Positions 1,736 to 15,555 of a stretch of DNA of 21,668 nucleotides are shown here, piece by piece (position 1 is the first letter of the stretch; each line of letters opens with the position of its first letter). The notes under the pieces are model-generated. The model did no database searches. It saw only the letters and a list, made by a program, of their open reading frames with translations, and was not told the origin of the DNA. The position numbers and the translations under genes are program-made. The DNA is from a virus: IMG/VR virus record IMGVR_UViG_3300017770_000209, positions 1-21,668 of that record; one strand, written 5' to 3'.

Positions 1736-2377
1736 TCAATCTAATACAAGTTCCTCCTGCACGGGCATTTTGATTTCTCCTGACTGTACCTTGAAGTATC
1801 TTTCTAATGCCTCGGTCATTTTTGGGCCACGAAACCATCCAGTACCATCAGTCGATTCAACCCCTAGTTCTTGGCATCGCATTAAAACCTTAAATGAATT
1901 TATTGCTCCTACATGAACTCGATCAAAAGACTCTGTCCACATAGTTAAATTCCTTAACTTCCATTCTTTTGTACCACCTACAAACACAACAGATGCTTCT
2001 TGCGGTACATCTTGTGGAGTCATTCCATCTTGTACGCAGAATGCCCATGTAAGATCGTAAGACTGTTCTAAAATAGGATGCCACTTTTCCCATTCCCTAA
2101 GTGTTTGATCTCGATTTCCTACACAATCAGGAACAACTACCCATCTAGGTTTTAATATCGTTTCTTGGTAGTAATCTAGCATTTTAGTAAAATCAAATTC
2201 GTTCCATTCTTTACCAGATGACCATACACTAAACCTACCATTATCTATTCCATAAGGAATCCAAGGCACAGGTTCTCTAACTGCAGACTCAGGAGTAAAT
2301 AACCAACCAACAGGATACCCTAGTCCAGCCCAATAATGGACTATCCCTTTAGCATTGTTGGATGGCATTACAATCAT
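1736..2377 (-). CDS. DpdA-like (tRNA-guanine transglycosylase family) DNA base-exchange enzyme
   Basis: A 213-residue protein resembling phage DpdA, the transglycosylase that swaps guanine in DNA for a 7-deazaguanine base. Visible motifs in order: IDNGRFS (44-50), counterpart of the LDSGGF acid of TGT enzymes; VVPDCVG (81-87); VQDGM (115-119); FVGGTKEWK (132-140), the Gly-Gly base pocket; HVGAINS (155-161); and STDGTG (175-180), probable position of the nucleophilic Asp. There is no obvious TGT zinc site, as expected for short viral forms. The start overlaps the end of the deoxyribosyltransferase-like gene by four bases (ATGA), showing translational coupling, and a QueD-like gene is two genes upstream. 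Family resemblance and context support the call; the modified base and target sequence are unknown. Alternative: a TGT-fold protein with another role. Confidence 0.7.
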   Translation of the reverse strand: MIVMPSNNAKGIVHYWAGLGYPVGWLFTPESAVREPVPWIPYGIDNGRFSVWSSGKEWNEFDFTKMLDYYQETILKPRWVVVPDCVGNRDQTLREWEKWHPILEQSYDLTWAFCVQDGMTPQDVPQEASVVFVGGTKEWKLRNLTMWTESFDRVHVGAINSFKVLMRCQELGVESTDGTGWFRGPKMTEALERYFKVQSGEIKMPVQEELVLD

Positions 2378-2787
2378 TGTGTAACACCAGGGTCAAACTC
2401 AGGGTATTCCATTGCTTTGAGTGCCTCATCAAGTGTTGGAAACACATAGTCTGCATGGTATCTAATCCAAGGAGACATGGAACTAGTGACCACAATAATT
2501 TGTTTATGTAAACTCCAAGCAAACATAATTTCCATTGCAGTACCCCATGACGGGTGATCGCACTTTGCTAGGATTGTATCGCAAGAGACTATATCTCGTT
2601 TGTCCCTTTCTACTATTTCCTTTGGCATTCCAGCGATACTTTCTTGCCCTCTGTAATCAGCATCTGTTGGCTTAATACTCATTATACCTTTTTTGCGTAA
2701 GATAGTATTTGCAGCCTTTCTCCACCTCACACAGGTATCATCCATCTCATAGATTGCTCCAGCTAGGTAAACTAATCTTACTTCCAT
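2374..2787 (-). CDS. Nucleoside 2-deoxyribosyltransferase-like protein
   Basis: A 137-residue protein with the layout of short nucleoside 2'-deoxyribosyltransferases and the related DUF4406 group: an N-terminal strand VRLVYLAGAI (3-12), an arginine-aspartate helix RDKRDIVSCD (61-70), and SWGTAMEIMFAW (80-91), where Glu86 matches the usual catalytic glutamate of the G-T-x-x-E motif, followed by the strand KQIIVVT. Such enzymes move a deoxyribose between bases or hydrolyse N-glycosidic bonds of nucleotides. It overlaps the QueD-like gene by ten bases and the dpdA-like gene by four, so the three are made together. That suggests handling of a 7-deazaguanine base or its nucleotide, but this is inference; similar proteins occur in phages without queuosine-type genes. 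Confidence 0.65.
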   Translation of the reverse strand: MEVRLVYLAGAIYEMDDTCVRWRKAANTILRKKGIMSIKPTDADYRGQESIAGMPKEIVERDKRDIVSCDTILAKCDHPSWGTAMEIMFAWSLHKQIIVVTSSMSPWIRYHADYVFPTLDEALKAMEYPEFDPGVTQ

Positions 2788-3140
2788 GCAGATACCTCCG
2801 CTTGCGTTGTTGTCTTGCAGACTTTCACGGAATCTAAAGTTAGATGATTAAATGATAAGTTCTTTTCTAATTCCTTGAATAAATACAGAGCTATACTTTC
2901 TGCGGTAGTCTGTTCCATGATTTCATTTAGATACCTATGATCTAAGCGCTTGACTACTCTACTAACGATCCCACGAAACTCTTGCTGGTCGATTAACCAC
3001 CCAACTTCGGGGTCAGGTTCTCCGCTTACAGTCACATATACTTTATGTGTATGTCCGTGAAGTTCTCCGTATTCCTTTCGTTTATTGCGGATTCTATGTG
3101 CCGCTTCAAAAGTAAATTCTTCCGTCAGTCTAGTCTTCAT
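2778..3140 (-). CDS. QueD-like 6-carboxytetrahydropterin synthase homolog with altered active site
   Basis: A 120-residue protein matching QueD in length and layout. QueD turns dihydroneopterin triphosphate into 6-carboxytetrahydropterin in 7-deazaguanine (preQ0) synthesis. Zinc ligands are present: His15 in FEAAHR, His28 and His30 in LHGH. Asp67-His68 (RLDHRYLNE) matches the catalytic pair. Two residues are missing: the nucleophilic Cys of the KCGxLHGH motif is Tyr24 (KEYGELHGH), and the pterin-binding Glu of the C-terminal VKET motif is Lys109 (VCKT). I checked both codons in the DNA. The start is ATG 3140, four bases after the terminase stop; a longer frame exists but its extra residues are antisense-free terminase overlap and not QueD-like. 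The gene is coupled to the deoxyribosyltransferase-like gene. It may make a different product, work as a partner subunit, or be decaying. Confidence 0.75.
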   Translation of the reverse strand: MKTRLTEEFTFEAAHRIRNKRKEYGELHGHTHKVYVTVSGEPDPEVGWLIDQQEFRGIVSRVVKRLDHRYLNEIMEQTTAESIALYLFKELEKNLSFNHLTLDSVKVCKTTTQAEVSAWK

Positions 3141-3144
3141 AAAT

Positions 3145-4830
3145 CTAATACCCACCACCACCTGTGACCTGTATGTCACGATGGGTGACATGGTCTGCAC
3201 CACTTACAAATAAATATCGCAGGCAGTCAATTTGGTCAGAGAAGTAATCACTCTTACTCTCTCCTGCATATTCAAGCATGGAAGATATTGTATTCTCGCA
3301 CTGATCGGAGAAGTAAAGCTTGGGGCAATTCTTGTCTGTCATGGTTTCTGTATCATCCCAGCTAAGTGCATCATTAATCTTGGCAATACCTGAGTCTATA
3401 GACACACCTGGTGCAGCACGCATCACAAATCCCATGTTACTCATTGTATTGATTATATTACTTTCTCCCTCCTTTGTACGCACTGTGGCTGCTCCCATTC
3501 GTGGGTCAACTATTCGCTCAAATATCTCCTCACCATCTTCCTGTGCTTCAAAGTAGGATAAGTAGTCTGAGTACCCCCAACCTAGAGGACGTTGTCCAGG
3601 GCCAGGTTTACCCACTGCTTTTCCTGCACCATTAATGTGGGGGATTGCCCATGCTCCCATCGTACTATCAGGAAACTCACGATAGACATATATCTTACCA
3701 TCCTTGGTCACGCCTGCCCATAATCCAACCCAAGGTTTACTACCACCCGGATCGCAGATGAAGTAACGTGTTACACTTACAGATGGATCTAAGATGAATG
3801 GTATCTTGCTATGTTCTATTACATTGGTCTCACGCTGGAATTTTGGGAACTTTCCTTCAAAGCTTTTACTTGGTATGCCGAATAATCGAGCAAGCTTTAC
3901 CTCCTGTGGTTGCTTGGAATAGGTACGCACAAGTTCATCTGCATCCACAAAGGGACTCATCTGTGACCAAAAATAATATATGCGACAGTCAGGCCAATTA
4001 GCAGACACTTGTTCAGTAGGCAGTTCCTTATCCATTAACGCACTATACTTTGACCTGACTGTCGTAGCTCCTTTCAGTAAACTATTAACTAATGGCGTGT
4101 ATCCTTGCAGAGTAGTGAAGGTCAGAATCAAACGACCATGATTATCTGTAAGTCTTGCCAATAGCGTGTTAAAAATATTCTCAGGAATCTCCTCATCGGC
4201 ATGTATACAATGGGCTGCCCATCCCTCGAAGATTTGTGGGTCTGCCATGTACTGTCTGTAATTATTAAAGTATATCGTACTCCCACGCTCGGCATCTGGA
4301 TGTGTGGGTGGCAAGATTGCTTTCCCTGCATTGAATCCATTCTTCTGTGTATATTGCAGACTATGATTCTCACTCTTCTTCTTGCTTCTCTTGTACCTAG
4401 CCGGAAGGGAATCCCATATATAACGCTGGGAATCACTTATACTTCTTTCCTCACTAACATGCAAAGAACGTATCTCTGCTTCGGGTATGTTCTGTGCCAA
4501 GTGTACAAGCAAGCGAGAAGCGAAGGTGGTTTTTGACGATCTGTTACCACCAAGGCAGACATGGATTTTTGTTTTTTTCCAGTTTTCCATGACCCTACGC
4601 CACCCAGGAAGAGTCCAACCCCATTCGATTGGATCTTCCTTCTCGCTGTTTGGTTGGTCAAGGAGCAAGCGTGTAAGTGTTTCTGCTCGTACAGGATCTT
4701 GTACTGTTAGCTTGTCTATCTCTTCATCTGATAATGCACACTTCAACTCTCCTCTATCATACTTAAAGTCATCTGTCCAAGGCACGCCAAAGCGTGCGTC
4801 TATTTCGTCTGCATAGGTTATCTTACCCAT
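3145..4830 (-). CDS. terL: Terminase large subunit (packaging ATPase and nuclease)
   Basis: A 561-residue motor protein that pumps DNA into the prohead and cuts the concatemer. The ATPase half has Walker A GGNRSSKT (94-101), Walker B with acids HADEE (210-214), and a coupling motif LILTFTT (234-240). The nuclease half has acidic residues at FICDPGG (Asp360), RIVDPRMGA (Asp442) and SDQIDCLRY (Asp532/Asp535), as in RNase H-fold terminase nucleases. The C-terminus ends in a short glycine run. The start ATG lies three bases after the stop of the PP-loop gene (TAG, ACT, ATG), and the QueD-like gene begins four bases after its stop. A small-terminase-like gene and an HNH nuclease lie on the opposite strand 2.9 kb away, not adjacent as usual. 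Confidence 0.93.
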   Translation of the reverse strand: MGKITYADEIDARFGVPWTDDFKYDRGELKCALSDEEIDKLTVQDPVRAETLTRLLLDQPNSEKEDPIEWGWTLPGWRRVMENWKKTKIHVCLGGNRSSKTTFASRLLVHLAQNIPEAEIRSLHVSEERSISDSQRYIWDSLPARYKRSKKKSENHSLQYTQKNGFNAGKAILPPTHPDAERGSTIYFNNYRQYMADPQIFEGWAAHCIHADEEIPENIFNTLLARLTDNHGRLILTFTTLQGYTPLVNSLLKGATTVRSKYSALMDKELPTEQVSANWPDCRIYYFWSQMSPFVDADELVRTYSKQPQEVKLARLFGIPSKSFEGKFPKFQRETNVIEHSKIPFILDPSVSVTRYFICDPGGSKPWVGLWAGVTKDGKIYVYREFPDSTMGAWAIPHINGAGKAVGKPGPGQRPLGWGYSDYLSYFEAQEDGEEIFERIVDPRMGAATVRTKEGESNIINTMSNMGFVMRAAPGVSIDSGIAKINDALSWDDTETMTDKNCPKLYFSDQCENTISSMLEYAGESKSDYFSDQIDCLRYLFVSGADHVTHRDIQVTGGGGY

Positions 4831-7694: not shown

Positions 7695-8228
7695 ATGCCT
7701 AAGCAATATAAACGACAAGCAAGGAAACCCGGTTCAGTCCGTGGATTCTGTGATGATATGACAAAAAATAATATAATTAAATCAGCAGCCAAGATTGCAG
7801 CCAAACAATCAAATGGGAAAAAAGAAGCAGAGATCCTAATGAAACAAGATCCAGAACTTCGTAAGTCTATTGGTAATTTCCTACGCTATCGTTTGGACAT
7901 GACTGAACAGGAGTTCCTCAATCAGGTAAACTCCAAGCTATCCACTATGGTGGCAGATTCCCTAAACACACTTCATAACAAACTAGACGAAATACCTCCT
8001 CAAAATCTAGCCTATGCTGTCGCAGTACTCATGGATAAATTCCTAACCGTCTCAGGTAGACCATCCAACATCACCGCATCCGCAAATGTAACCCTCGGTT
8101 CATCCGATATGTCCCCCGATCAAGTACGCTCCATCCTTAAAGGAGCAACCAAAGAAGTTAAAAAACAACCCACCCAGGCATCCGAAGATAAAGTTGTAGA
8201 CATCACGCCAGATGACTCCTCTAAATAA
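7695..8228 (+). CDS. Putative terminase small subunit-like DNA-binding protein
   Basis: A 177-residue protein with a basic N-terminus (PKQYKRQARKPGSVRG), a helical core and an acidic, disordered-looking tail (TPDDSSK). The stretch LDEIPPQNLAYAVAVLMDKFLTVSGRPSN (about 98-126) resembles a segment I recall from small-terminase-like and replication-associated phage proteins, in which a conserved Asp-Lys helix precedes a Gly-x-Pro turn. The next gene is an HNH nuclease, and small terminase, large terminase and HNH commonly act together in packaging. It overlaps that gene by 17 bases. The large subunit is on the other strand. Alternative: an unrelated early DNA-binding protein. Assignment is tentative. 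Confidence 0.45.
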   Translation: MPKQYKRQARKPGSVRGFCDDMTKNNIIKSAAKIAAKQSNGKKEAEILMKQDPELRKSIGNFLRYRLDMTEQEFLNQVNSKLSTMVADSLNTLHNKLDEIPPQNLAYAVAVLMDKFLTVSGRPSNITASANVTLGSSDMSPDQVRSILKGATKEVKKQPTQASEDKVVDITPDDSSK

Positions 8229-8796
8229 ACAAATCATCGCCCTACGCAAAAAAGGTCTGTCCTTTAACCAAATTGCAAAGAAACTTAAATGTTCCAAATC
8301 TACTGTATCCTATGCCCTGCGTAAAAAAACACGGGATCTTGCCAAAGAAAAAAATAAAAACTATCCAAGAAATTATAAAGTAATCCTTAATAAAATCTAT
8401 TCCTTCCAAAATCCTAAACCACTTTCCAAACAACCTAAGCCTGCCTGGTATCTTAATAAATCAAAAAGACAGACATCCAAAGCAATATCAGATAAAGCCA
8501 ATCGTTTCCAAAGACCTATGACTTTCAATTATAAAGATGTTCATGCAAAGTATGGTGACACTTTTCCATGCGCGCTTACAGGTAGACCTATAGACTTTCA
8601 CGATCCAGATACCTATGAATATGACCATAAAACTCCCACAGCGCGTGGTGGGGATAATTCTATGGATAATCTCCAAATTGTATGCCCAGAAGCAAACCGG
8701 GCAAAAGGTATGATGACAGATCAAGAGTTCCTCGATCTATGTAAGGAAATTGTTATCCATGCAGGACATCGGATATACAAACCCATGGATAAATAA
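8212..8796 (+). CDS. HNH endonuclease with N-terminal HTH
   Basis: A 194-residue protein. Residues 5-38 form a helix-turn-helix (ALRKKGLSFNQIAKKLKCSKSTVSYALRKK), a resolvase-like DNA-reading module. A basic linker follows. Residues 118-180 hold the HNH nuclease: CALTG (Cys120), YEYDHKTPTARGG (Asp138, His139), DNLQIVC (Asn153, Cys158) and Asn162. HNH proteins beside terminase genes take part in cos cleavage in HK97-type phages; others are homing nucleases. The HTH and the 17-base overlap with the upstream gene make a packaging or DNA-processing role likelier than a free homing element. Ends in TAA directly before a small hairpin. Confidence 0.85.
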   Translation: MTPLNKQIIALRKKGLSFNQIAKKLKCSKSTVSYALRKKTRDLAKEKNKNYPRNYKVILNKIYSFQNPKPLSKQPKPAWYLNKSKRQTSKAISDKANRFQRPMTFNYKDVHAKYGDTFPCALTGRPIDFHDPDTYEYDHKTPTARGGDNSMDNLQIVCPEANRAKGMMTDQEFLDLCKEIVIHAGHRIYKPMDK

Positions 8797-8813
8797 GATC
8801 GTATTCCCGATCT
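8796..8813 (+). terminator. Short hairpin after HNH gene, weak terminator candidate
   Basis: AGATCG-TATTCC-CGATCT forms a six-base-pair stem starting in the stop codon of the HNH gene. A second perfect hairpin, GCCTCG-AAT-CGAGGC, lies at 8839-8853. Neither is followed by a T run, so they may be processing or pausing sites rather than intrinsic terminators. Confidence 0.3.
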
Positions 8814-9083
8814 ACTAACTCAAACTACATTACCCTACGCCTCGAATCGAGGCCATGCTGTATGCCATGCAAGGGGGTAGGGGGCATGAAAGGTATGGGG
8901 GCATGATAGCGTAATTCCCCATCATAACCATGCGCAAACAACGCCCCACCAAGGGGGGCAATATTGCAAAAAAAGTTATGCGGGGGGTGATAATAATATA
9001 GAAAGAACGCAGGCGCGCAGGCGCGCCCCCGCCCCCCCGGGTGCGTGCAGGCGTGCGTCTATTTATAACGTAAAATGAGGGTC

Positions 9084-9108
9084 GCACTTCTTGTTAGAAA
9101 GTGCAAGG
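9084..9108. repeat. Inverted repeat with GAAAGTGCAAGG, partner at 18867
   Basis: GCACTT (9084-9089) pairs with AAGTGC (9099-9104) across nine bases, and GAAAGTGCAAGG (9097-9108) recurs exactly at 18867-18878 next to the integrase, again beside an inverted TGCACTTTC copy. Shared palindromic sites at two control regions suggest a common regulator. Confidence 0.4.
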
Positions 9109-9124
9109 TATGCATGGATAGTGG

Positions 9125-9414
9125 GATTGCGTGGTTTGACTTGGCAAGATTACATGATTGCGTGCGATTGCGTGGTCTAGCTCGATTGATTGCAAGCTTG
9201 GTTTAAACAATCCAGTGTAAATATGTAGTTAGTGTAAATACATATAGCGCATACTTACATTTTCTTGCATGAGGGCGAAATGCTTTTTCACATGCTTTTT
9301 CACATGCTTTCTTTTGACGTAATAACGTAATGACGTCACATGCTATTCACACCACATAATTTCATGCTACCAGTTTGCAAGGATCACATGGTACTAAGTT
9401 TGCAAGATTGCGTG
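9125..9414 (+). repeat. Four GATTGCGTG iterons
   Basis: The nine-base word GATTGCGTG occurs on the plus strand at 9125-9133, 9156-9164, 9166-9174 and 9406-9414. The middle two are ten bases apart, one helical turn. Four exact copies of a nine-mer within 290 bases is far above chance and resembles origin iterons bound by an initiator. Confidence 0.55.
9284..9351 (+). promoter_or_regulatory. DnaA-box matches in tandem
   Basis: TTTTTCACA at 9284-9292 and 9296-9304 fits the DnaA box consensus TTWTNCACA, with the repeats twelve bases apart (unit TGCTTTTTCACA). A one-mismatch copy, CTATTCACA, is at 9343-9351, after a palindromic TGACGTCA. These could bind host DnaA or the phage DnaA domain-IV protein. 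Confidence 0.45.
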
Positions 9415-9436
9415 AAACTTTTTTTGCATGATGCAT

Positions 9437-9475
9437 TGCCCCGTGAACCGGGGGCATGCTGCATGCTGCATGCAT
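9437..9475. repeat. GC hairpin followed by GCATGCT tandem repeat
   Basis: TGCCCC (9437-9442) can pair with GGGGCA (9451-9456) across eight bases. It runs into GCATGCT, GCATGCT, GCATGC at 9454-9473, a seven-base tandem repeat whose units are themselves palindromic. Confidence 0.45.
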
Positions 9476-9525
9476 ACAAGGATGCAAGCTTTTATTAGTT
9501 AGGTTACGATTAACTACAAAATAAG

Positions 9526-9554
9526 TTGACATGGTGCAGTTGTTGTGTTTTAGT
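9526..9554 (+). promoter_or_regulatory. Sigma-70-like promoter for rightward small-gene operon
   Basis: TTGACA at 9526-9531, a 17-base spacer and TTTAGT at 9549-9554 (four of six matches to TATAAT) make a plausible promoter for the gene at 9610 and those after it. A 19-codon reading frame (9531-9590) begins inside it, so promoter and peptide readings partly exclude one another. Confidence 0.45.
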
Positions 9555-9564
9555 GTATTCCATG

Positions 9565-9585
9565 CAAGCGAGATAGCTTGTTTTT
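9565..9585 (+). terminator. Leader hairpin with T run, possible attenuator
   Basis: CAAGC-GAGATA-GCTTG forms a five-base-pair stem directly followed by TTTTT. It sits about ten bases after the predicted transcription start and 25 bases before the first gene, so it may act as a weak attenuator in the leader. Confidence 0.35.
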
Positions 9586-9609
9586 ATTAACTCAAAATTA
9601 TTACTACAA

Positions 9610-10011
9610 ATGAAAAATCAATATAACTCAGTACATGATTATGTTACCACACGCCTTGAAGAAGGGTATGGTAAGGAGACTAATGCATCTGATTTGCACC
9701 ATCACTTATGCAATGAAGATTATTTCATTATCGGAACTTACAAGGCAAAAGAGTTTCTCGGTTCAAGCGCATTCGATATTATCCAAAAGATAAAAGAGTA
9801 TGAACAAGACAACTTTGGAGAATGCACAACAGATTTGAGTGATCCTGAAAAAGTTGCAAATATGTTTGCTTATATTGTGGGGGAAGAAATTCTTCGAGAA
9901 AGTGATCATTTAAATGAATGTTGGAATAATTATCTTACAGATGAAGATCACGCCCAAATCACTTTAGAAATTGCAAGTGTCAACATAGCTAAAGTTTACA
10001 ACTCCAATTAA
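9610..10011 (+). CDS. Hypothetical acidic protein (133 aa), first gene of rightward operon
   Basis: A 133-residue acidic, soluble protein, not recognised with certainty. It starts MKNQYNSVHDYVTTRLEEGYG, has an HHHL segment near residue 25 and a stretch KEYEQDNFGECTTDLSDPEKVANMFAYIVGEEIL (about 62-97) of clear helical character; I have an impression of related phage early proteins of unknown function. There is no Shine-Dalgarno site: the ATG is directly preceded by ATTACTACAA, the motif found at other operon-leading starts in this window. It is the first gene after the candidate promoter, so probably early. Anti-host or replication-accessory roles are possible but not shown. Confidence 0.8.
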   Translation: MKNQYNSVHDYVTTRLEEGYGKETNASDLHHHLCNEDYFIIGTYKAKEFLGSSAFDIIQKIKEYEQDNFGECTTDLSDPEKVANMFAYIVGEEILRESDHLNECWNNYLTDEDHAQITLEIASVNIAKVYNSN

Positions 10012-10037
10012 ACTACAAACAACTAAATTTCAATACC

Positions 10038-10136
10038 ATGTCACACTACGAGCTTACAATCATACTACTAGCACCATACGCCATCATGGGCGCTTGGATC
10101 GCAATACAAACACTTAAAGCAAAAAGGAGAAACTAG
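10038..10136 (+). CDS. Small single-pass membrane protein (32 aa)
   Basis: ATG 10038 to TAG 10134-10136. Residues 5-24 (ELTIILLAPYAIMGAWIAIQ) form one membrane segment; the C-terminus is basic (KAKRRN), suggesting it faces the cytoplasm. The stop is one base before the next ATG within the AAGGAGAAACTAGCATG junction. The start has no Shine-Dalgarno; ACTACAAACAACTA lies 15-28 bases upstream. Function is unknown. Confidence 0.55.
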   Translation: MSHYELTIILLAPYAIMGAWIAIQTLKAKRRN

Positions 10137-10137
10137 C

Positions 10138-10278
10138 ATGAACCAAGACTTACAATATTTTATCACTGAGCATTGCAAGCGCATTGCAACCTTACAAAAC
10201 AGCAAAGACCCCAACAAGCATGCATTGATTGCCTTGCTTGCAAAGGAGATCGGACAAGCAAAGGAGAAACTAGCATGA
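10138..10278 (+). CDS. Small helical protein (46 aa)
   Basis: A 46-residue, Ala/Lys-rich helical protein (KRIATLQNSKDPNKHALIALL, ending GQAKEKLA). AAGGAG lies eight bases before its ATG, and its stop overlaps the next start as ATGA. Its last codons are part of the repeated junction sequence, so the AKEKLA tail is shared with the product of the next gene. No function is recognised. Confidence 0.6.
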   Translation: MNQDLQYFITEHCKRIATLQNSKDPNKHALIALLAKEIGQAKEKLA

Positions 10279-10517
10279 CATTAAGAGAATTAAAACCATC
10301 TAGCTATAGCGCCATCAATGTTACTACTGAGTATCTTGGTAGAAGATATCTTATAACACATTGCAATGATTGGTTTACTGCTGAGCGTGTAGCTTGCGAT
10401 TACCAAGCTAAATTTCCAGACGCATGTTACTTTACAGGTAGCAAGTATGATTCAACTCACATTGATGGTAAAGCCATTGATTTCCGCAATCATTATGCAA
10501 AGGAGAAACTAGCATGA
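10275..10517 (+). CDS. Hypothetical protein (80 aa)
   Basis: The start is ATG 10275, which overlaps the upstream stop (ATGA) and has AAGGAG at good distance; a longer open frame extends upstream but without that signal. The 80-residue product is a mixed alpha/beta-looking protein (YLGRRYLITHCNDWFTAERVACDYQAKFP) ending AKEKLA, the same tail as the preceding protein because both end in the junction repeat. Not recognised. Confidence 0.65.
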   Translation: MTLRELKPSSYSAINVTTEYLGRRYLITHCNDWFTAERVACDYQAKFPDACYFTGSKYDSTHIDGKAIDFRNHYAKEKLA

Positions 10518-10711
10518 AACACGCAAGCGAGATGTTCCCGGAAGCACTCAAACAATTGATTGAGATAGGCGATAAAGGCATGAAACAAAGAGAGCAAAGG
10601 GAGCGTGCAAAGCAAGCCAGCAAGGCCTCGTTTACGAGGGCATGTAAGCATGGTGCAAGAGGGCAATCCTTTACAGAAAAAGAGAAAATACAACTAACAT
10701 TCAACCTTTAA
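10514..10711 (+). CDS. Small basic protein (65 aa)
   Basis: A 65-residue basic, helical protein (KQLIEIGDKGMKQREQRERAKQASKASF) with a C-terminal GARGQSFTEKE. The GQSF coding sequence GGGCAATCCTTTA recurs exactly in the gene at 10905, hinting at a shared origin. ATGA overlap with the preceding stop and a strong AAGGAG site support the start. Charge suggests nucleic-acid contact; no family is recognised. Confidence 0.6.
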   Translation: MKHASEMFPEALKQLIEIGDKGMKQREQRERAKQASKASFTRACKHGARGQSFTEKEKIQLTFNL

Positions 10712-10716
10712 TAATT

Positions 10717-10908
10717 ATGAGCAAGAAAGACATAAAAAGATGGATGGATATAATTTCGGAATTAGCAGATCATGACATTGCACCAAGATTATCGGATGCA
10801 GTAGGTGATGGTGTATATGAAGATATACCAGAAATTGATGATGCAAGATCATTGTTACAAGATGCATGGCAATTACTAAACAATTATTTGGAAGGAGAAA
10901 CAGCATGA
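10717..10908 (+). CDS. Small acidic helical protein (63 aa)
   Basis: A 63-residue acidic protein predicted to be helical (KRWMDIISELADHDIAPRL, then DDARSLLQDAWQLLNNYLEGETA). It begins six bases after the preceding stop. The Shine-Dalgarno is weak (AATAATT upstream). Its stop overlaps the next start as ATGA, again with AAGGAGAAACAGCATG. Unknown function. Confidence 0.6.
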   Translation: MSKKDIKRWMDIISELADHDIAPRLSDAVGDGVYEDIPEIDDARSLLQDAWQLLNNYLEGETA

Positions 10909-11102
10909 GAATAGCAGCACATAAACAAGCACCTAAGCTTACAAGCTTTGAGGTATTCGCATACAAGCAAATCAAAGGCCAGCGTGCCTGTATGAAGGTT
11001 CTAGAGGTGGAAGCGAGAACTGCGCAGGATGCAGGAAAGACCGGGCAATCCTTTAGCAAGATGATGTCTTACGAATATTCACATGTAAGGGAGGTAAGGT
11101 GA
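10905..11102 (+). CDS. Small basic protein (65 aa)
   Basis: The start at ATG 10905 has AAGGAG upstream and a four-base overlap; an upstream in-frame start at 10866 is ignored because it would run through the preceding gene. The 65-residue product is basic (IAAHKQAPKLTSFEVFAYKQIKGQRACMKVLEV) and contains GKTGQSF, coded by the same 13-base word as in the gene at 10514. Not recognised. Confidence 0.6.
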   Translation: MRIAAHKQAPKLTSFEVFAYKQIKGQRACMKVLEVEARTAQDAGKTGQSFSKMMSYEYSHVREVR

Positions 11103-11437
11103 TGAGCAAGCTAACACTAATAGGAGAAAACGAGAATGGCGTTCCCTTTGCATCTCGCATTATAAAGAAGGGCGAGAAGTATGGTAGAAACTTTTGCTTG
11201 GTACATGATGGAGAAGATCCCTTGGTAGAATTTTGGGATCTCAGGCATGAGCATGACTTAATTGCACCCAATGATGAAACTAAAGGGCAATTTGTATCAA
11301 GGTATTACATCAAGACATTAAAAGGAGAATGCGATTATACGCATGGCGAACCTGCAACTGAAAGAGGTGTCAACCTTGATGGTGGCGTAGATGATTGGTT
11401 TGTAGATGCAGTGCAAGTAAGAAAGGCAATCGCATGA
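11102..11437 (+). CDS. Hypothetical protein (111 aa)
   Basis: ATG 11102 overlaps the preceding TGA by one base and has GGAGG seven bases upstream; a GTG one codon earlier is possible. The 111-residue product looks beta-rich, with strands LTLIGENENGVPFASRI, GRNFCLVHDGEDPLVEFWDLR and RYYIKTLKG, and ends in VDDWFVDAVQVRKAIA. Length and composition suggest a single small globular domain. I do not recognise a family. Confidence 0.7.
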   Translation: MSKLTLIGENENGVPFASRIIKKGEKYGRNFCLVHDGEDPLVEFWDLRHEHDLIAPNDETKGQFVSRYYIKTLKGECDYTHGEPATERGVNLDGGVDDWFVDAVQVRKAIA

Positions 11438-11565
11438 GCAAACAAGACAACAATGACCTGCTACCCAAGCTTGCACTTGGCATGGCGCTCTTCATAGCGC
11501 TCAAATTCTTGCCGAAAGTGCTTGCATGGTGGGCTAAGAGAAACAAGAAACAAGGAGAAATATAG
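11434..11565 (+). CDS. Small single-pass membrane protein (43 aa)
   Basis: A 43-residue protein with one membrane segment (LLPKLALGMALFIALKFLPK, about 9-28), followed by a Trp pair and a basic tail (WWAKRNKKQGEI), so the C-terminus is likely cytoplasmic. Its start overlaps the preceding stop as ATGA, and its own tail codons supply the AAGGAG site of the next gene. A holin-like or host-membrane-directed role is possible but unsupported. Confidence 0.6.
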   Translation: MSKQDNNDLLPKLALGMALFIALKFLPKVLAWWAKRNKKQGEI

Positions 11566-11566
11566 A

Positions 11567-11878
11567 ATGAAAATAGAATTAGAATTTGATATAACAAAGA
11601 CAACACAAGATACCATGGAAGGTACATGGCATGGTAATATTGATGATGATGCAGTTTACTTGCATTGCTATACTGAGCTATTAATAAAACATAAGATCGC
11701 ATCTCTTGTAGAAAATATTGACTCAGAGTATGGATGGGGTACTCACGCATGGAATAGACACATGGAACACATTGAAGAGAAATGTCACGTATCTTTGTTT
11801 GAGGAGAATGGCAAAGAGATAGATCCGGAATCTAAGCATGGCACTTTCGTTGCATGGAAGGATGGAGTACCAGCATGA
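11567..11878 (+). CDS. Hypothetical protein (103 aa)
   Basis: ATG 11567 with AAGGAG (11552-11557) is preferred over an upstream in-frame start at 11522 that lies within the preceding gene. The 103-residue product begins with a strand (MKIELEFDITKTT), has a helical middle (VYLHCYTELLIKHKIASLVENI) and several His/Trp residues (GWGTHAWNRHMEHIEEK). No family is recognised. Its stop overlaps the next tiny frame as ATGA. Confidence 0.7.
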   Translation: MKIELEFDITKTTQDTMEGTWHGNIDDDAVYLHCYTELLIKHKIASLVENIDSEYGWGTHAWNRHMEHIEEKCHVSLFEENGKEIDPESKHGTFVAWKDGVPA

Positions 11879-11931
11879 TGTCAACAAAAAGAGAAATACA
11901 AACTTGGACAAAAACTTCGGAGGGTGCATGA
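11875..11931 (+). CDS. Microprotein or coupling peptide (18 aa)
   Basis: An 18-codon frame whose ATG overlaps the upstream stop (ATGA) and whose TGA overlaps the downstream ATG (ATGA). The peptide is MMSTKREIQTWTKTSEGA. The two perfect overlaps keep the chain of coupled starts intact, and CTTCGGAGGG inside it serves as ribosome site for the next gene. It may be functional or just a translational bridge. Confidence 0.4.
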   Translation: MMSTKREIQTWTKTSEGA

Positions 11932-12209
11932 ACACTACAGAATTAGACAAAATCAAAGAATTAACAGAAGCACTAAAAGAATCCATCAAATGGTTGGAAT
12001 GTACAGAAGATGGTACATATGAACAGATTAGGAGAATCTTTGGTGAGGAAACTGTAGACATGTTAAATCGCCATAGAAATATCGTGAAAAAAACTTCGGA
12101 GGCTAGTGTTTTCCCGTGGGAGGAGAAACAAAAGATGCAGCCTAAAGTAATCTATGAAACAGATCCAAGGTTAGATCCAAACTTTGAATCTAGTGAAGGA
12201 GAAACTTAA
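11928..12209 (+). CDS. Small acidic coiled-coil protein (93 aa)
   Basis: ATG 11928 is preceded by CGGAGGG at good spacing; a longer frame from 11838 would overlap the two upstream genes. The 93-residue product has an N-terminal amphipathic helix (TTELDKIKELTEALKESIKWLE) and a Pro/Glu-rich tail. AAAACTTCGGAGG, the ribosome site of this gene, recurs inside it near 12089-12102. It is the last gene of the operon and ends in AAGGAGAAACTTAA, a junction-like sequence with no gene after it. Confidence 0.65.
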   Translation: MNTTELDKIKELTEALKESIKWLECTEDGTYEQIRRIFGEETVDMLNRHRNIVKKTSEASVFPWEEKQKMQPKVIYETDPRLDPNFESSEGET

Positions 12210-12214
12210 TCTTT

Positions 12215-12274
12215 AGGTCATATAGCCTCTTAAAAGCGTTTTAACACCCACATGGGTATATTGACCTTCTTTTT
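12215..12274 (+). terminator. Possible terminator of the rightward operon
   Basis: AGGTCA (12215-12220) can pair with TGACCT (12262-12267), followed by TTCTTTTT. Inside lies a small hairpin ACCCA-CA-TGGGT (12247-12258). The outer loop is long, so strength is doubtful, but the position between convergent operons fits. Confidence 0.35.
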
Positions 12275-12289
12275 ATCCAAAAGCGTTTT
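12232..12289. repeat. Direct repeat AAAAGCGTTTT
   Basis: The eleven-base word AAAAGCGTTTT occurs at 12232-12242 and 12279-12289, 47 bases apart, in the convergent gap 12210-12350. Apart from these, the gap holds the terminator-like element and a 17-codon leftward frame (12290-12343) starting at ACTACAAATG. Confidence 0.5.
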
Positions 12290-12350
12290 CTAGACCCCAT
12301 GCTCGTAACGCAATGGCATACTATGAGATACCATGTAAGTCATTTGTAGT

Positions 12351-13613
12351 CTAAAATGGTTTCTTATCATGCAATCGTGTATCAACACGTGTTGAGAAAC
12401 GCCCGGTTGGCTTGGTAAAAGTTAGCTTAGTTGCACGCACTTCTCCATTTCTGTTCTTAGCAACATTGCAAATGATATCGTCATTGGTTGGATCTACTTC
12501 CTTTTCTCGATGCATGAGAAGCACGCAATCTGCATCTTGTTCTATACTTCCTGACTCACGCAAGTCAGAGAGCATGGGATTGCGGTTAGCACTTTCTAAG
12601 GCACGATTTAATTGAGAAAGGGCAAGCACGGGAACTTCATATTCCATTGCAATTGCTTTCAAGGAACGAGAAATGTGGCTCACCTCTTGCACTCGTGAGT
12701 CATGCCCAGGTGAAGAGAGTAGCTGCAAGTAATCGATTACGATTAAACCAAGCTCGCCTTCAAGCCTTTGCTTGGCAATGAATGCCTCAATACTTTGCAT
12801 GGTGGCTTGGTTATCATCCTTGAATGTAATTGGCCAACCTTGCATTGCTTGCACTTGTGTCTCTAATTTTTGCTTATGACCTGCATTGAGAAACCCCTTG
12901 CCTGTTGGTTTGCGTACACCACTTGCATTGGAAAGTAATCTACCAGCACATTCTGATGATGACATTTCTAAGCTTGCATAGCTTGCTCTTAAACCACGCT
13001 TTGCAGTTTCGTATGTCATTTGTATGGCTAATGCAGACTTTCCTACTCCTGGGCGTGCTGCAAGGACGTACAAGCTACCTTTCTTGAAACCACCGCCAAG
13101 AATAGCATCTAACTTTTCCAAGCCTGTTGGGATTGCTTGCGTGCCACCTGCATCCACTTCAAGAAATTCTGCAAATGCTTCTTTACTTGCTGCACCACAT
13201 GCAACCACGCCTTTGCGTTGAGAAAGTGATTTTGCAATGGTGTTCACAAATGTCTGACTTATCTCTTCTGCTGGTTTACTTGCTTTTAAATCATCATTGG
13301 CTTGCCATAAGGCACGCTCCACACTTCTCGTATTACGATGATCTATCAAATATTCAATGTATCTTTCTATGCCACCTCCTCCAAACTTCTCGCTCAAAAA
13401 GATTACTTCTTGTTTTAGCTCTGGATGTTCTATGATTACATCAATCTCATTGGCAGGTGATAAGCGTAAACACGTTTCAAAGATCGTGGAACGATCCATG
13501 CAGGAGAAGTCATCCTTGGTTAATGCTTCACCTGCTTGTGCGGTGGCTACTCCACTTTCATCATGCAACATGGCGGAGAGAACTGCTTGTTCTGCTAATT
13601 TAACATCAATCAT
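12351..13613 (-). CDS. dnaB: Replicative DNA helicase, DnaB family
   Basis: A 420-residue hexameric 5'-3' helicase. The N-terminal helical domain (about 1-130, EQAVLSAML) is followed by a linker and the RecA-like motor: PTGLEKLDAILGGGFKKGSL, Walker A ARPGVGKS (186-193), SLEMS (214-218), Walker B LIVIDYLQLL (290-299), ALSQLNR (331-337) and SDLRESGSIEQDADCVL (349-365). The length is slightly short of host DnaB (about 450-470). The start overlaps the stop of the RHH/replication protein by eight bases, so the presumed loader and helicase are coupled. No primase domain is attached. Confidence 0.93.
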   Translation of the reverse strand: MIDVKLAEQAVLSAMLHDESGVATAQAGEALTKDDFSCMDRSTIFETCLRLSPANEIDVIIEHPELKQEVIFLSEKFGGGGIERYIEYLIDHRNTRSVERALWQANDDLKASKPAEEISQTFVNTIAKSLSQRKGVVACGAASKEAFAEFLEVDAGGTQAIPTGLEKLDAILGGGFKKGSLYVLAARPGVGKSALAIQMTYETAKRGLRASYASLEMSSSECAGRLLSNASGVRKPTGKGFLNAGHKQKLETQVQAMQGWPITFKDDNQATMQSIEAFIAKQRLEGELGLIVIDYLQLLSSPGHDSRVQEVSHISRSLKAIAMEYEVPVLALSQLNRALESANRNPMLSDLRESGSIEQDADCVLLMHREKEVDPTNDDIICNVAKNRNGEVRATKLTFTKPTGRFSTRVDTRLHDKKPF

Positions 13614-14169
13614 CCGGGTGCTTGGTAGTTACATCAAAATTTAAGCCATGAGTTGAAACAGAATTATTTACCACGTTATCATACCCACCATCATTCAACC
13701 ATGAGTTTGGATGTTTTGCATAATTTCCTTTCTCGTGAAAATGTTGATTGTATTTCTCTGCAACTATCTTTGGGTCAAGCTGTGAAAGATCATCCCAATT
13801 CAATCTGATAGTCTTTACAACTCGTCTTGCAAATTGCTGGTTTTTACATACTTCCCAGAATGCTTGAAACCATGCATGAGTTTCCTCTTTTTTTGCATCC
13901 TTATTTTTAGCCTCTGTATTATTTTTCATTATATCTTTAGATATAATAATATTATCTACACACGTGTGTGCGCGAGGATTGTAATACGGGGGTATTACAT
14001 TGGCATTTTGGATAGTCGGTGCAATGAACTGTGAAATCGCTGCTTTTACGACCTCAGATTTTCTCATTCCTGTAAGCTCACAAAACAACATTAATCGTGC
14101 GTTTGCGGACTCGTTTAATCGGAATGATGTGGTGTAACTTTTTCCTTCTTCTTTATCTTCTTCTGACAT
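13606..14169 (-). CDS. RHH-domain replication protein, possible helicase loader
   Basis: A 187-residue two-part protein. Residues 10-50 (SYTTSFRLNESANARLMLFCELTGMRKSEVVKAAISQFI) look like a ribbon-helix-helix DNA-binding module. After a charged linker, residues 95-175 (HAWFQAFWEVCKNQQFARRVVKTIRLNW ... HPNSWLNDGGYDN) resemble the C-terminal domain of phage replication proteins, which end in a Trp-Leu-Asn-x-Gly-Gly signature and often sit before DnaB. It overlaps the helicase start by eight bases. A DNA-binding helicase loader or replisome organiser is the best guess; this is inference from position and recalled motif. Confidence 0.6.
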   Translation of the reverse strand: MSEEDKEEGKSYTTSFRLNESANARLMLFCELTGMRKSEVVKAAISQFIAPTIQNANVIPPYYNPRAHTCVDNIIISKDIMKNNTEAKNKDAKKEETHAWFQAFWEVCKNQQFARRVVKTIRLNWDDLSQLDPKIVAEKYNQHFHEKGNYAKHPNSWLNDGGYDNVVNNSVSTHGLNFDVTTKHPDD

Positions 14170-14311: not shown

Positions 14312-14746
14312 TTATCGTTTAATGATACTGCTGGCATAGTTTTTTATGCGTTGCACCGGTATCAAGTACGCTTTCTTTGGATGGGTATCTCCCTTGCCTG
14401 TGAATTGACGCAAGGGTGGATTCTGCTCCACAATGAGATCCTTTAATTGTTTTGGAGTGATAAATATAAACTCATCCTTGGTATCAAATATCCACCAATC
14501 TGCGGTGGTGGCCATCAACCCGGATCGCTTGCCATACATCTCGACCTCCACCACGAGATTGCCGGAATAATGAGCCTTCCAATCCTGCTTTACCTCATAG
14601 CCTTGCTTCGTATTGGCTAAGAAGAAATCAAAGCCAGAGAACTTGCCTGGTATGGGTATGGGCTTATGCCCTTTGGATTGGAAGAACTCGATTAATTCGG
14701 CCTCACGCAGCTTTCCAACAGATAGGCTGGTGTCAAACTCAGTCAT
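14312..14746 (-). CDS. PD-(D/E)XK nuclease, Holliday-junction-resolvase-like
   Basis: A 144-residue nuclease. The core is a PD-(D/E)XK fold: Glu17 in the first helix (KLREAELIEFFQSKG), Asp40 (SGFDFFLA), Glu51-Val-Lys53 (GYEVKQDWKAHYSGN) and a following strand LVVEVE, then GLMATTADWWIF, a typical second strand and helix. Small stand-alone enzymes of this kind resolve junctions or nick DNA. It overlaps the RusA gene by eight bases. With RusA frameshifted, this gene may supply the resolvase activity. Confidence 0.7.
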   Translation of the reverse strand: MTEFDTSLSVGKLREAELIEFFQSKGHKPIPIPGKFSGFDFFLANTKQGYEVKQDWKAHYSGNLVVEVEMYGKRSGLMATTADWWIFDTKDEFIFITPKQLKDLIVEQNPPLRQFTGKGDTHPKKAYLIPVQRIKNYASSIIKR

Positions 14747-15076
14747 GGACGCTCACTTCTACCCACGTCTCTTCTTCCTTGTAGGTTTTGACTTTTTCCT
14801 GACTGACTTCGAGGGTGATCGCTTGAGGGTCATCTTCTGGTATAATGTCCGCAGCCCGGAGCGAATCGACAAGGTACTTGACTCCCCCAACAAGGTTGTC
14901 CGGGTCGCAGATTCTGACTCGCTTGGAGATAATGCGGACTCGATGGCGATCATCGCCTCCTTCTGCATTTCTCTCTTCTCTTTGACTCGCGCCCACCGAT
15001 TCATACCCAGAAGTGTGTTCAATGAAGGGGTTCGTTTCTTCACGCACAGCGTTATTTTTTCTCCCTTTTCCATCAC
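14739..15076 (-). CDS. rusA: RusA-family resolvase split across two frames
   Basis: RusA cuts Holliday junctions. The N-terminal half reads well from GTG/ATG 15076/15073, right after the DnaA-IV stop: ITLCVKKRTPSLNTLLGMNR, then a helix to about 14935. The C-terminal half, RICDPDNLVGGVKYLVDSLRAADIIPEDD and VSQEKVKTYKEEETWVEV, is in the frame one base back and ends at 14739. DPDNL holds the catalytic Asp residues. Joined near 14925-14945 the product would be about 115 residues, normal for RusA. The C-terminal frame is also open up to ATG 15086, but its upstream part is not RusA-like. No slippery heptamer is visible, so an indel (mutation or sequence error) is likelier than programmed frameshifting. 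Confidence 0.7.
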
Positions 15077-15555
15077 TAGTTGGCATTTATGTTTCTTCCC
15101 ACCAGGTTAATCTTGGCTGCCATCTCCCTGTCACATTCAAGCAAATCATGAATCTTACTACAGGTGTGGGATATATTGCTATGATTACGATCGAAGACCT
15201 TGCCCAGCTCTTCAACCTTATATCCTTGTTTGCGACTGTAGAAGATTGCACATTGGCGTGCCAAGGACACATCTTGTGTGCGTTTCCTACTTTCTATCTC
15301 CGCAACACTTACACCAAGAGTCTTGGCACATATCTTTTTGATATCATCAATAGAGATCATACATTCTCTGTGTGTATATATAGTGATGTCAGGGTCACTC
15401 TGATTATTCATATCCTCACCTGCCAATGTTGCCACTAATTGCTTCAGTGCTGCATGTAATACCACAACCGCGCCTTCAAAGTTCTGTTGCTCAATATGAT
15501 CTTCAGCATATCCCAGCACTTTATCCATCTCGTTTATTTTCAATCTATTAGCCAT
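15076..15555 (-). CDS. DnaA domain IV-like DNA-binding protein
   Basis: A 159-residue protein without AAA+ ATPase. Residues 66-140 match the DNA-binding domain IV of the bacterial initiator DnaA: SIDDIKKICAKTLGVSVAEIES, then SLARQCAIFYSRKQGYKVEELGKVF, then RNHSNISHTCSKI (123-135), the counterpart of the DHTTVLHA signature that reads DnaA boxes. Residues 1-50 are a separate helical segment that might bind a partner. It lies between the small HTH gene (16-base overlap) and rusA, upstream of dnaB in the same operon. DnaA-box matches at 9284-9304 are candidate targets. It could recruit helicase to the phage origin or compete with host DnaA. Confidence 0.8.
   Translation of the reverse strand: MANRLKINEMDKVLGYAEDHIEQQNFEGAVVVLHAALKQLVATLAGEDMNNQSDPDITIYTHRECMISIDDIKKICAKTLGVSVAEIESRKRTQDVSLARQCAIFYSRKQGYKVEELGKVFDRNHSNISHTCSKIHDLLECDREMAAKINLVGRNINAN

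Follow-up and report, generated by a model that had tools for sequence, protein, structure and literature searches.

A conserved intergenic region, candidate replication origin beside a putative cos-like site, in an uncultured marine phage group

The window analysed here is the whole of an uncultured virus record, 21,668 bases in length. An HNH endonuclease gene ends at 8796 and the first rightward early gene starts at 9610, and between them lies a gap in which aligned relatives keep 77–87% DNA identity (Table 1). A preliminary description had proposed a gene-free block within this gap (9084–9475) as a candidate origin, naming iterons, DnaA boxes, GCATGCT tandems and a GC hairpin, and had paired it with a phage protein that carries the DNA-binding domain IV of DnaA. 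The block is indeed free of supported genes, and the true gap without one extends from 8797 to 9609. No Rfam family or tRNA was found.

The virus belongs to an abundant, uncultured group of marine phages, of which this analysis found no cultured member. Among 50,697 GenBank phage records there was no DNA match over 8000–12300. In IMG/VR, 354 pattern matches to the large terminase were obtained and 353 were confirmed as relatives. Two terminase relatives are located in Verrucomicrobiota MAG contigs, which gives a weak lead to the host. The near-complete relatives that we compared are 35.6–39.0 kb long. In two of them, G002 and G003, the contig ends in direct repeats (99 and 127 bases), and both were treated as circular; G001 and G004–G006 show no such repeats, and their rotation takes circularity as an assumption. 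Elsewhere in the window (1736–3203) are genes for a QueD-like protein, a nucleoside deoxyribosyltransferase-like protein and possibly a short DpdA-like protein (phrog_15826, of unknown function). They are variably present in relatives, and 7-deazaguanine DNA modification is a possible role.

Table 1. Features of the intergenic gap and of the genes discussed in the text.
Feature	Position	Strand	Basis or remark
TerS-like gene	7695..8228	+	named by position beside HNH and terminase module
HTH-HNH endonuclease, packaging-type neighbour	8212..8796	+	Pfam HNH_4, HTH_38
Conserved intergenic control region, HNH gene to rightward early genes	8797..9609	.	no supported ORF; relatives align
Left hairpin GCCTCG-AAT-CGAGGC	8839..8853	+	G002 and G004 have variant hairpins here
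Ultraconserved GC-rich element GTTATGCGGGGGGTGATAATAATATAGAAAGAACGC, putatively cos-like	8975..9010	+	relatives
Three GATTGCGTG iterons (9125, 9156, 9166)	9125..9174	+	enrichment count
Remaining TTGCRWG array (9190, 9265, 9375, 9400, 9408, 9424)	9190..9430	+	
Two TTTTTCACA 'DnaA boxes', 12-bp tandem	9284..9304	+	not conserved
Covarying hairpin CCCCG-TGAAC-CGGGG	9439..9453	+	
TTGACA, possible −35 of rightward early genes (weak)	9527..9532	+	conserved in alignment
DnaB-like helicase	12351..13613	-	
RHH protein (187 aa), candidate core initiator/loader	13606..14169	-	C-terminal part weakly similar to replication-initiation families
In-gene element CCTCGCG...ACACACGTGTGT...TTATATCT-AA-AGATATAA, rival origin candidate	13929..13977	-	
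159-aa protein, a fusion of 65-aa phage N-domain and DnaA domain IV	15076..15555	-	

The best conserved DNA of the gap (8917–9048) lies to the left of the block and had been overlooked. It includes the GC-rich element GTTATGCGGGGGGTGATAATAATATAGAAAGAACGC, about 180 bp beyond the HNH stop codon, which we found at 31 distinct loci with no more than 7 mismatches in 36 bases. An 18-base core of this element is exact in 59 viral contigs, and a diverged form was recognized by eye in G013. At L182 (~3030–3110), upstream of the GC-rich element, four near-tandem gcggtaaggcgcttattgcg(tg) copies lead into that element in G006.

The block itself carries a repeat array. The four exact GATTGCGTG copies reported earlier were all located, the fourth at 9406, where about 0 would be expected; the whole window holds 5 against 0.15 expected, a count reached in no shuffle. 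GATTGCGTG, TTGCAAG and TTGCATG together make up a TTGCRWG array, with 10 copies in a 600-base block of the window, where the remainder of the window predicts 0.80 (Poisson p 1.4e-8). TTGCRWG is enriched in each genome that encodes domain IV (14 copies per block in G002, 12 in G003, 8 in G009 and 7 in G001), and TTGCAAG is an enriched word across 25 related blocks (94 versus 7 expected). The range is 5–14 copies in phages with domain IV and 2–5 in those lacking it. Blocks like that of G004, which lacks the domain, keep 4–5; the block of L137 has 5, L137 being the closest relative of G004 (DnaB 98.8% and HNH 100% identical) and presumed, on the strength of this kinship, to lack domain IV as well. 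In more distant relatives the words differ but are still built on TTGC (TTTGCG in G005, TTGCGGG in G006). The array words are short (7–9 bp), degenerate and present on both strands, and they form the significant repeat array in noncoding DNA that characterizes an iteron-type origin.

The supposed DnaA boxes are a different matter. The window has 3 TTWTNCACA matches where 2.9 are expected, and the two matches in the block are a single 12-bp tandem duplication (ATGCTTTTTCAC). The tandem matches are absent from L002, L005 and L068, and the motif is absent from 8 of 12 blocks of domain-IV phages (G002 counted through L175). The conserved TTWTNCACA cluster of an oriC-type origin was therefore not found, and the chance-level count and loss in relatives rule out the boxes as a conserved feature. 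The GCATGCT tandems are likewise at chance level (3 versus 4.5 expected). Of the repeats put forward earlier, then, the array is kept in relatives, as is the hairpin, and the DnaA boxes are lost in most.

The GC hairpin at 9439–9453 is conserved through compensatory changes. Stem sequences vary among relatives, yet pairing holds in 97.9% of cells; the two inner CG pairs are invariant and four pairs change on both sides. Its covariation score is 0.81. Shuffling lowers it to 0.24, with none of 500 shuffles reaching the observed value, and sliding gives at most 0.28. Because the register was set manually, either from a flank shared by the sequences or from the hairpin, the pairing count leans towards structure. 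These data suggest that a folded strand or cruciform is kept here, rather than a sequence.

Strand composition switches in the gap. A GC-skew check, recommended with the original proposal, placed the cumulative minimum at the 8975–9010 element in all six large relatives tested (G001–G006), so that the composition switch of an iteron-type origin is present at the site. To the left of the gap, third-position GC skew is negative in every genome tested (up to 10), whichever strand is coding: it is −0.33 for TerS and −0.32 for HNH on the plus strand, and −0.51 for an HTH gene (HTH7202) and −0.41 for a sigma gene on the minus strand. Plus-strand genes to the right are mostly positive, g10173 being negative. 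Antisense transcription of TerS and HNH may be the source of the negative left-hand skew, and for four of the six genomes the position of the minimum presupposes circularity. Nevertheless, the skew pattern favours an origin near the gap, and a switch there together with a conserved array and hairpin makes such an origin plausible. The least stable duplex DNA is found in the RHH gene and upstream of it, not in the block; the exception is a low-stability point at 9577, where the first early gene is close by.

How might these features work together? The reading that we prefer, and hold tentatively at somewhat less than an even chance, is that an 810-bp conserved cis-acting control region, of which the block forms the right-hand part, is most likely a replication origin region next to a packaging (cos-like) site. 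We place the origin here because replication strand bias flips in this region. Proteins would bind at the TTGCRWG array; the RHH 'loader' and DnaB would open and load either at the gap or at an element inside the RHH gene; and the HNH/TerS module would act on the 8975–9010 element. Domain IV would be a late addition, an accessory DNA-binding factor and not the defining initiator of the region. Three observations sit uneasily with this reading: g10173, to the right of the gap, has negative skew; less stable DNA than that of the block exists elsewhere in the window; and the largest arrays occur in the clade with domain IV, so that domain IV could read the array. The original proposal of an origin in the block stands as regards skew and repeats, and its pairing with DnaA domain IV is unsupported.

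Alternatively, the gap may be a packaging initiation (cos) site, with HNH, TerS and TerL cutting at or near GCGGGGGGTG (8980–8989) and with the TTGCRWG array serving as a cosB-like binding field for TerS or for the HTH of the HNH protein. We rate this at not quite an even chance. An ultraconserved GC-rich element beside TerS-like and HNH genes suggests a cos or packaging site, and the arrangement matches an HNH-type cos, in which an HNH gene adjoins the small terminase gene (here named by position only, the TerS-like gene having no family match) next to a conserved GC-rich site; the HNH protein also has an N-terminal HTH. In many linear Pahexavirus records, HNH homologues lie ~50–500 bases from the record ends, at the extreme end and with the terminase genes at the opposite one, as expected for a neighbour of cos. 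Wherever a lineage has this stretch, TerS, HNH and the element are all present, except in G013, where no HNH relative was detected. Contigs also end near the element more often than expected; however, these ends are scattered over ~200 bases rather than falling at one base, and several contigs cross the supposed cut. Moreover, the array extends 460 bp from the element, and packaging alone does not predict a skew switch. A cos site at the gap is plausible, as is an origin, and the two functions are not exclusive.

A serious rival to the block as origin lies within the RHH gene. All lineages share two replication proteins, the RHH 'loader' and DnaB; the G003 allele of the RHH protein gives a match below threshold to Pfam RepB-RCR_reg. 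Two very different RHH alleles with a common 3′ end (STHGLNFDV) are found among close relatives that have domain IV, which suggests exchange by recombination. The TTGCRWG array is unchanged with either allele; the RHH domain is therefore probably not the array reader, and we set that candidate aside. Between the two halves of the gene is a linker with CCTCGCG, an alternating purine-pyrimidine tract, hairpins and an AT-rich run. This element recurs in the window, G001–G006, G008, G009 and G013 (there as CCTTCACG). It starts in codon phase 0 in the window and G013, phase 2 in G003–G006 and phase 1 in G008. Being read in all three codon phases, its conservation cannot be explained by the protein code and implies selection on DNA. 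Its hairpins, registered by hand, hold 77 of 77 stem pairs in 10 differing sequences. A DNA-level conserved element within an initiator gene, the mark of a lambda-type origin, is thus present.

The true origin may accordingly be lambda-like and formed by the CGCG hairpin, the second hairpin and the AT-rich tract at 13929–13977, a reading we regard as possible though clearly below even. Its position at the same linker across lineages, the three codon phases, the paired hairpins and the low duplex stability in or near the gene all speak for it, as does excess folding against synonymous shuffles in G003 (z −5.0) and in G004, G005 and G006 (about −2.0 to −2.4). On the other hand, z is weak for the alleles of the window (−0.6), G008 (−1.3) and G013 (−0.6), no iterons were seen beside the element by eye, and the skew does not switch there. 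The element could instead be a module boundary or a single-strand priming site.

Transcription offers a further account, in which the gap holds only operators, terminators and a leader hairpin that control the flanking genes. Terminator-like hairpins are in excess (6 versus 1.0 in shuffles) and a conserved TTGACA precedes the first early gene. The promoter scan did not list this TTGACA, however, and found no matching promoter before the early genes, and the skew switches whichever way the genes run; transcriptional control is unlikely to be the whole explanation.

What, then, of the 159-aa protein? Its description as a DnaA domain-IV protein without an ATPase was accurate. Domain IV is matched end to end by Bac_DnaA_C (PF08299, 1–69/69, E 6e-16) and by profile to PDB 8btg and 1j1v. 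The domain IV helix-turn-helix of the DnaA family is present, and the AAA+ ATPase (domain III) is not. The reported gene order also holds, the 187-aa RHH protein and DnaB being encoded downstream in the same gene series. In the RDHTTV motif the histidine is kept and its neighbours are altered (RNHSN, RDHSN, RTHSS): 'GGRDHTTV' is 'FDRNHSNI' in the window, and the residue before the histidine is N, D or T in relatives. An AlphaFold model of the protein (mean pLDDT 43.5) was too poor for use. The slot after this gene is occupied by a RusA-like, Hjc-like or RuvC-like resolvase according to the relative (named by eye; respectively the window, G001, G009 and L245; G003, G004, G007, L233 and G013; and G005, G006 and G008), and these unrelated resolvases appear to have been exchanged there. 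The RusA-like resolvase (14739–15086, minus strand) has its N-terminal residues in one frame and its C-terminal half in the −1 frame, a split identical in G001, G009 and L245, with no classical slippery heptamer seen.

Domain IV is the newer part of this protein. The corresponding protein of G004, G006, G007 and G008 consists of the N-terminal 65–70 residues alone, and short proteins like these occur in G005 and G013. A DCCDGQDQ tail is common to the L233 protein, which has domain IV, and to the G004 and G007 proteins, which lack it, so that the domain resembles a cassette placed between the N-domain and the tail. (L245 and L233 have a divergent domain IV on inspection and were counted as having it.) In trees of eight shared proteins, the phages with domain IV form one clade, G004 and G007 are its sister and G005, G006, G008 and G013 fall outside, which argues that the domain was gained once. 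Moreover, G004, G005 and G006 retain the element and the skew minimum at the gap; domain IV is thus not needed for the existence of the region. Judging from these sequences, the region predates the domain, which joined an older 65-aa phage protein in a single fusion.

Stand-alone domain IV may recur beside helicase loaders. In an Opitutia MAG contig (L196:902-1737), a gene for a DnaC-like ATPase is followed immediately by one for a stand-alone DnaA domain IV of 89 aa. We found no report of a stand-alone phage DnaA domain IV in the open-licence literature. Two tblastn candidates for isolate phages with the domain (H1 and H2) were rejected as full-length bacterial DnaA in unverified scaffolds.

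Could domain IV nevertheless be an initiator? In one version, the domain was grafted onto the older small phage protein, the chimera with its changed contact residues reads TTGCRWG, the array then expanded, and the origin is recognized without an AAA+ ATPase. We think this improbable; the array is larger in phages with domain IV, and because of the single gain this difference is confounded with phylogeny. Least probable is the model first proposed, in which the 159-aa protein reads boxes or iterons and opens the origin without AAA+: despite a real domain IV in one gene series with loader and DnaB, and the larger arrays, the boxes are not conserved, the domain is confined to one clade, and element, skew switch and a smaller array are present without it.

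On the preferred reading, in which domain IV came late, this phage group is a natural before-and-after series in which a phage replication gene cluster captured the DNA-binding domain of DnaA. The series comprises sister phages with and without domain IV, one common intergenic region and two exchangeable RHH alleles. The element kept in three reading frames within the RHH gene is in addition a testable origin candidate in a marine phage group.

Several known systems resemble parts of this arrangement. The origin of the Vibrio PLE satellite, which works with RepA_N, is of the iteron type, and like the gap it consists of noncoding short-motif repeats on a mobile replicon with replication proteins of its own (PMC7145576). 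The repeats in the window differ in being 7–9 bp, degenerate and on both strands, and no RepA_N was found. The phage domain IV aligns end to end with that of E. coli DnaA (PDB 1J1V) and keeps the histidine of RDHTTV. Unlike the bacterial oriC/DnaA system, however, the phage protein has no AAA+ domain and the DnaA boxes of the block are not conserved. The lambda origin lies inside gene O. Similarly, our in-gene candidate is in an initiator-like gene, in a linker between DNA-binding and C-terminal parts and near AT-rich DNA, although RHH takes the place of the O fold and no iterons were seen in the gene by eye. Cos packaging modules of the HK97 type combine HNH, TerS and TerL. As in these modules and in Pahexavirus, the HNH gene adjoins a TerS-like gene and a GC-rich conserved site; in the window, by contrast, it is early genes and not TerS that lie beyond the site, and TerL is on the opposite strand.
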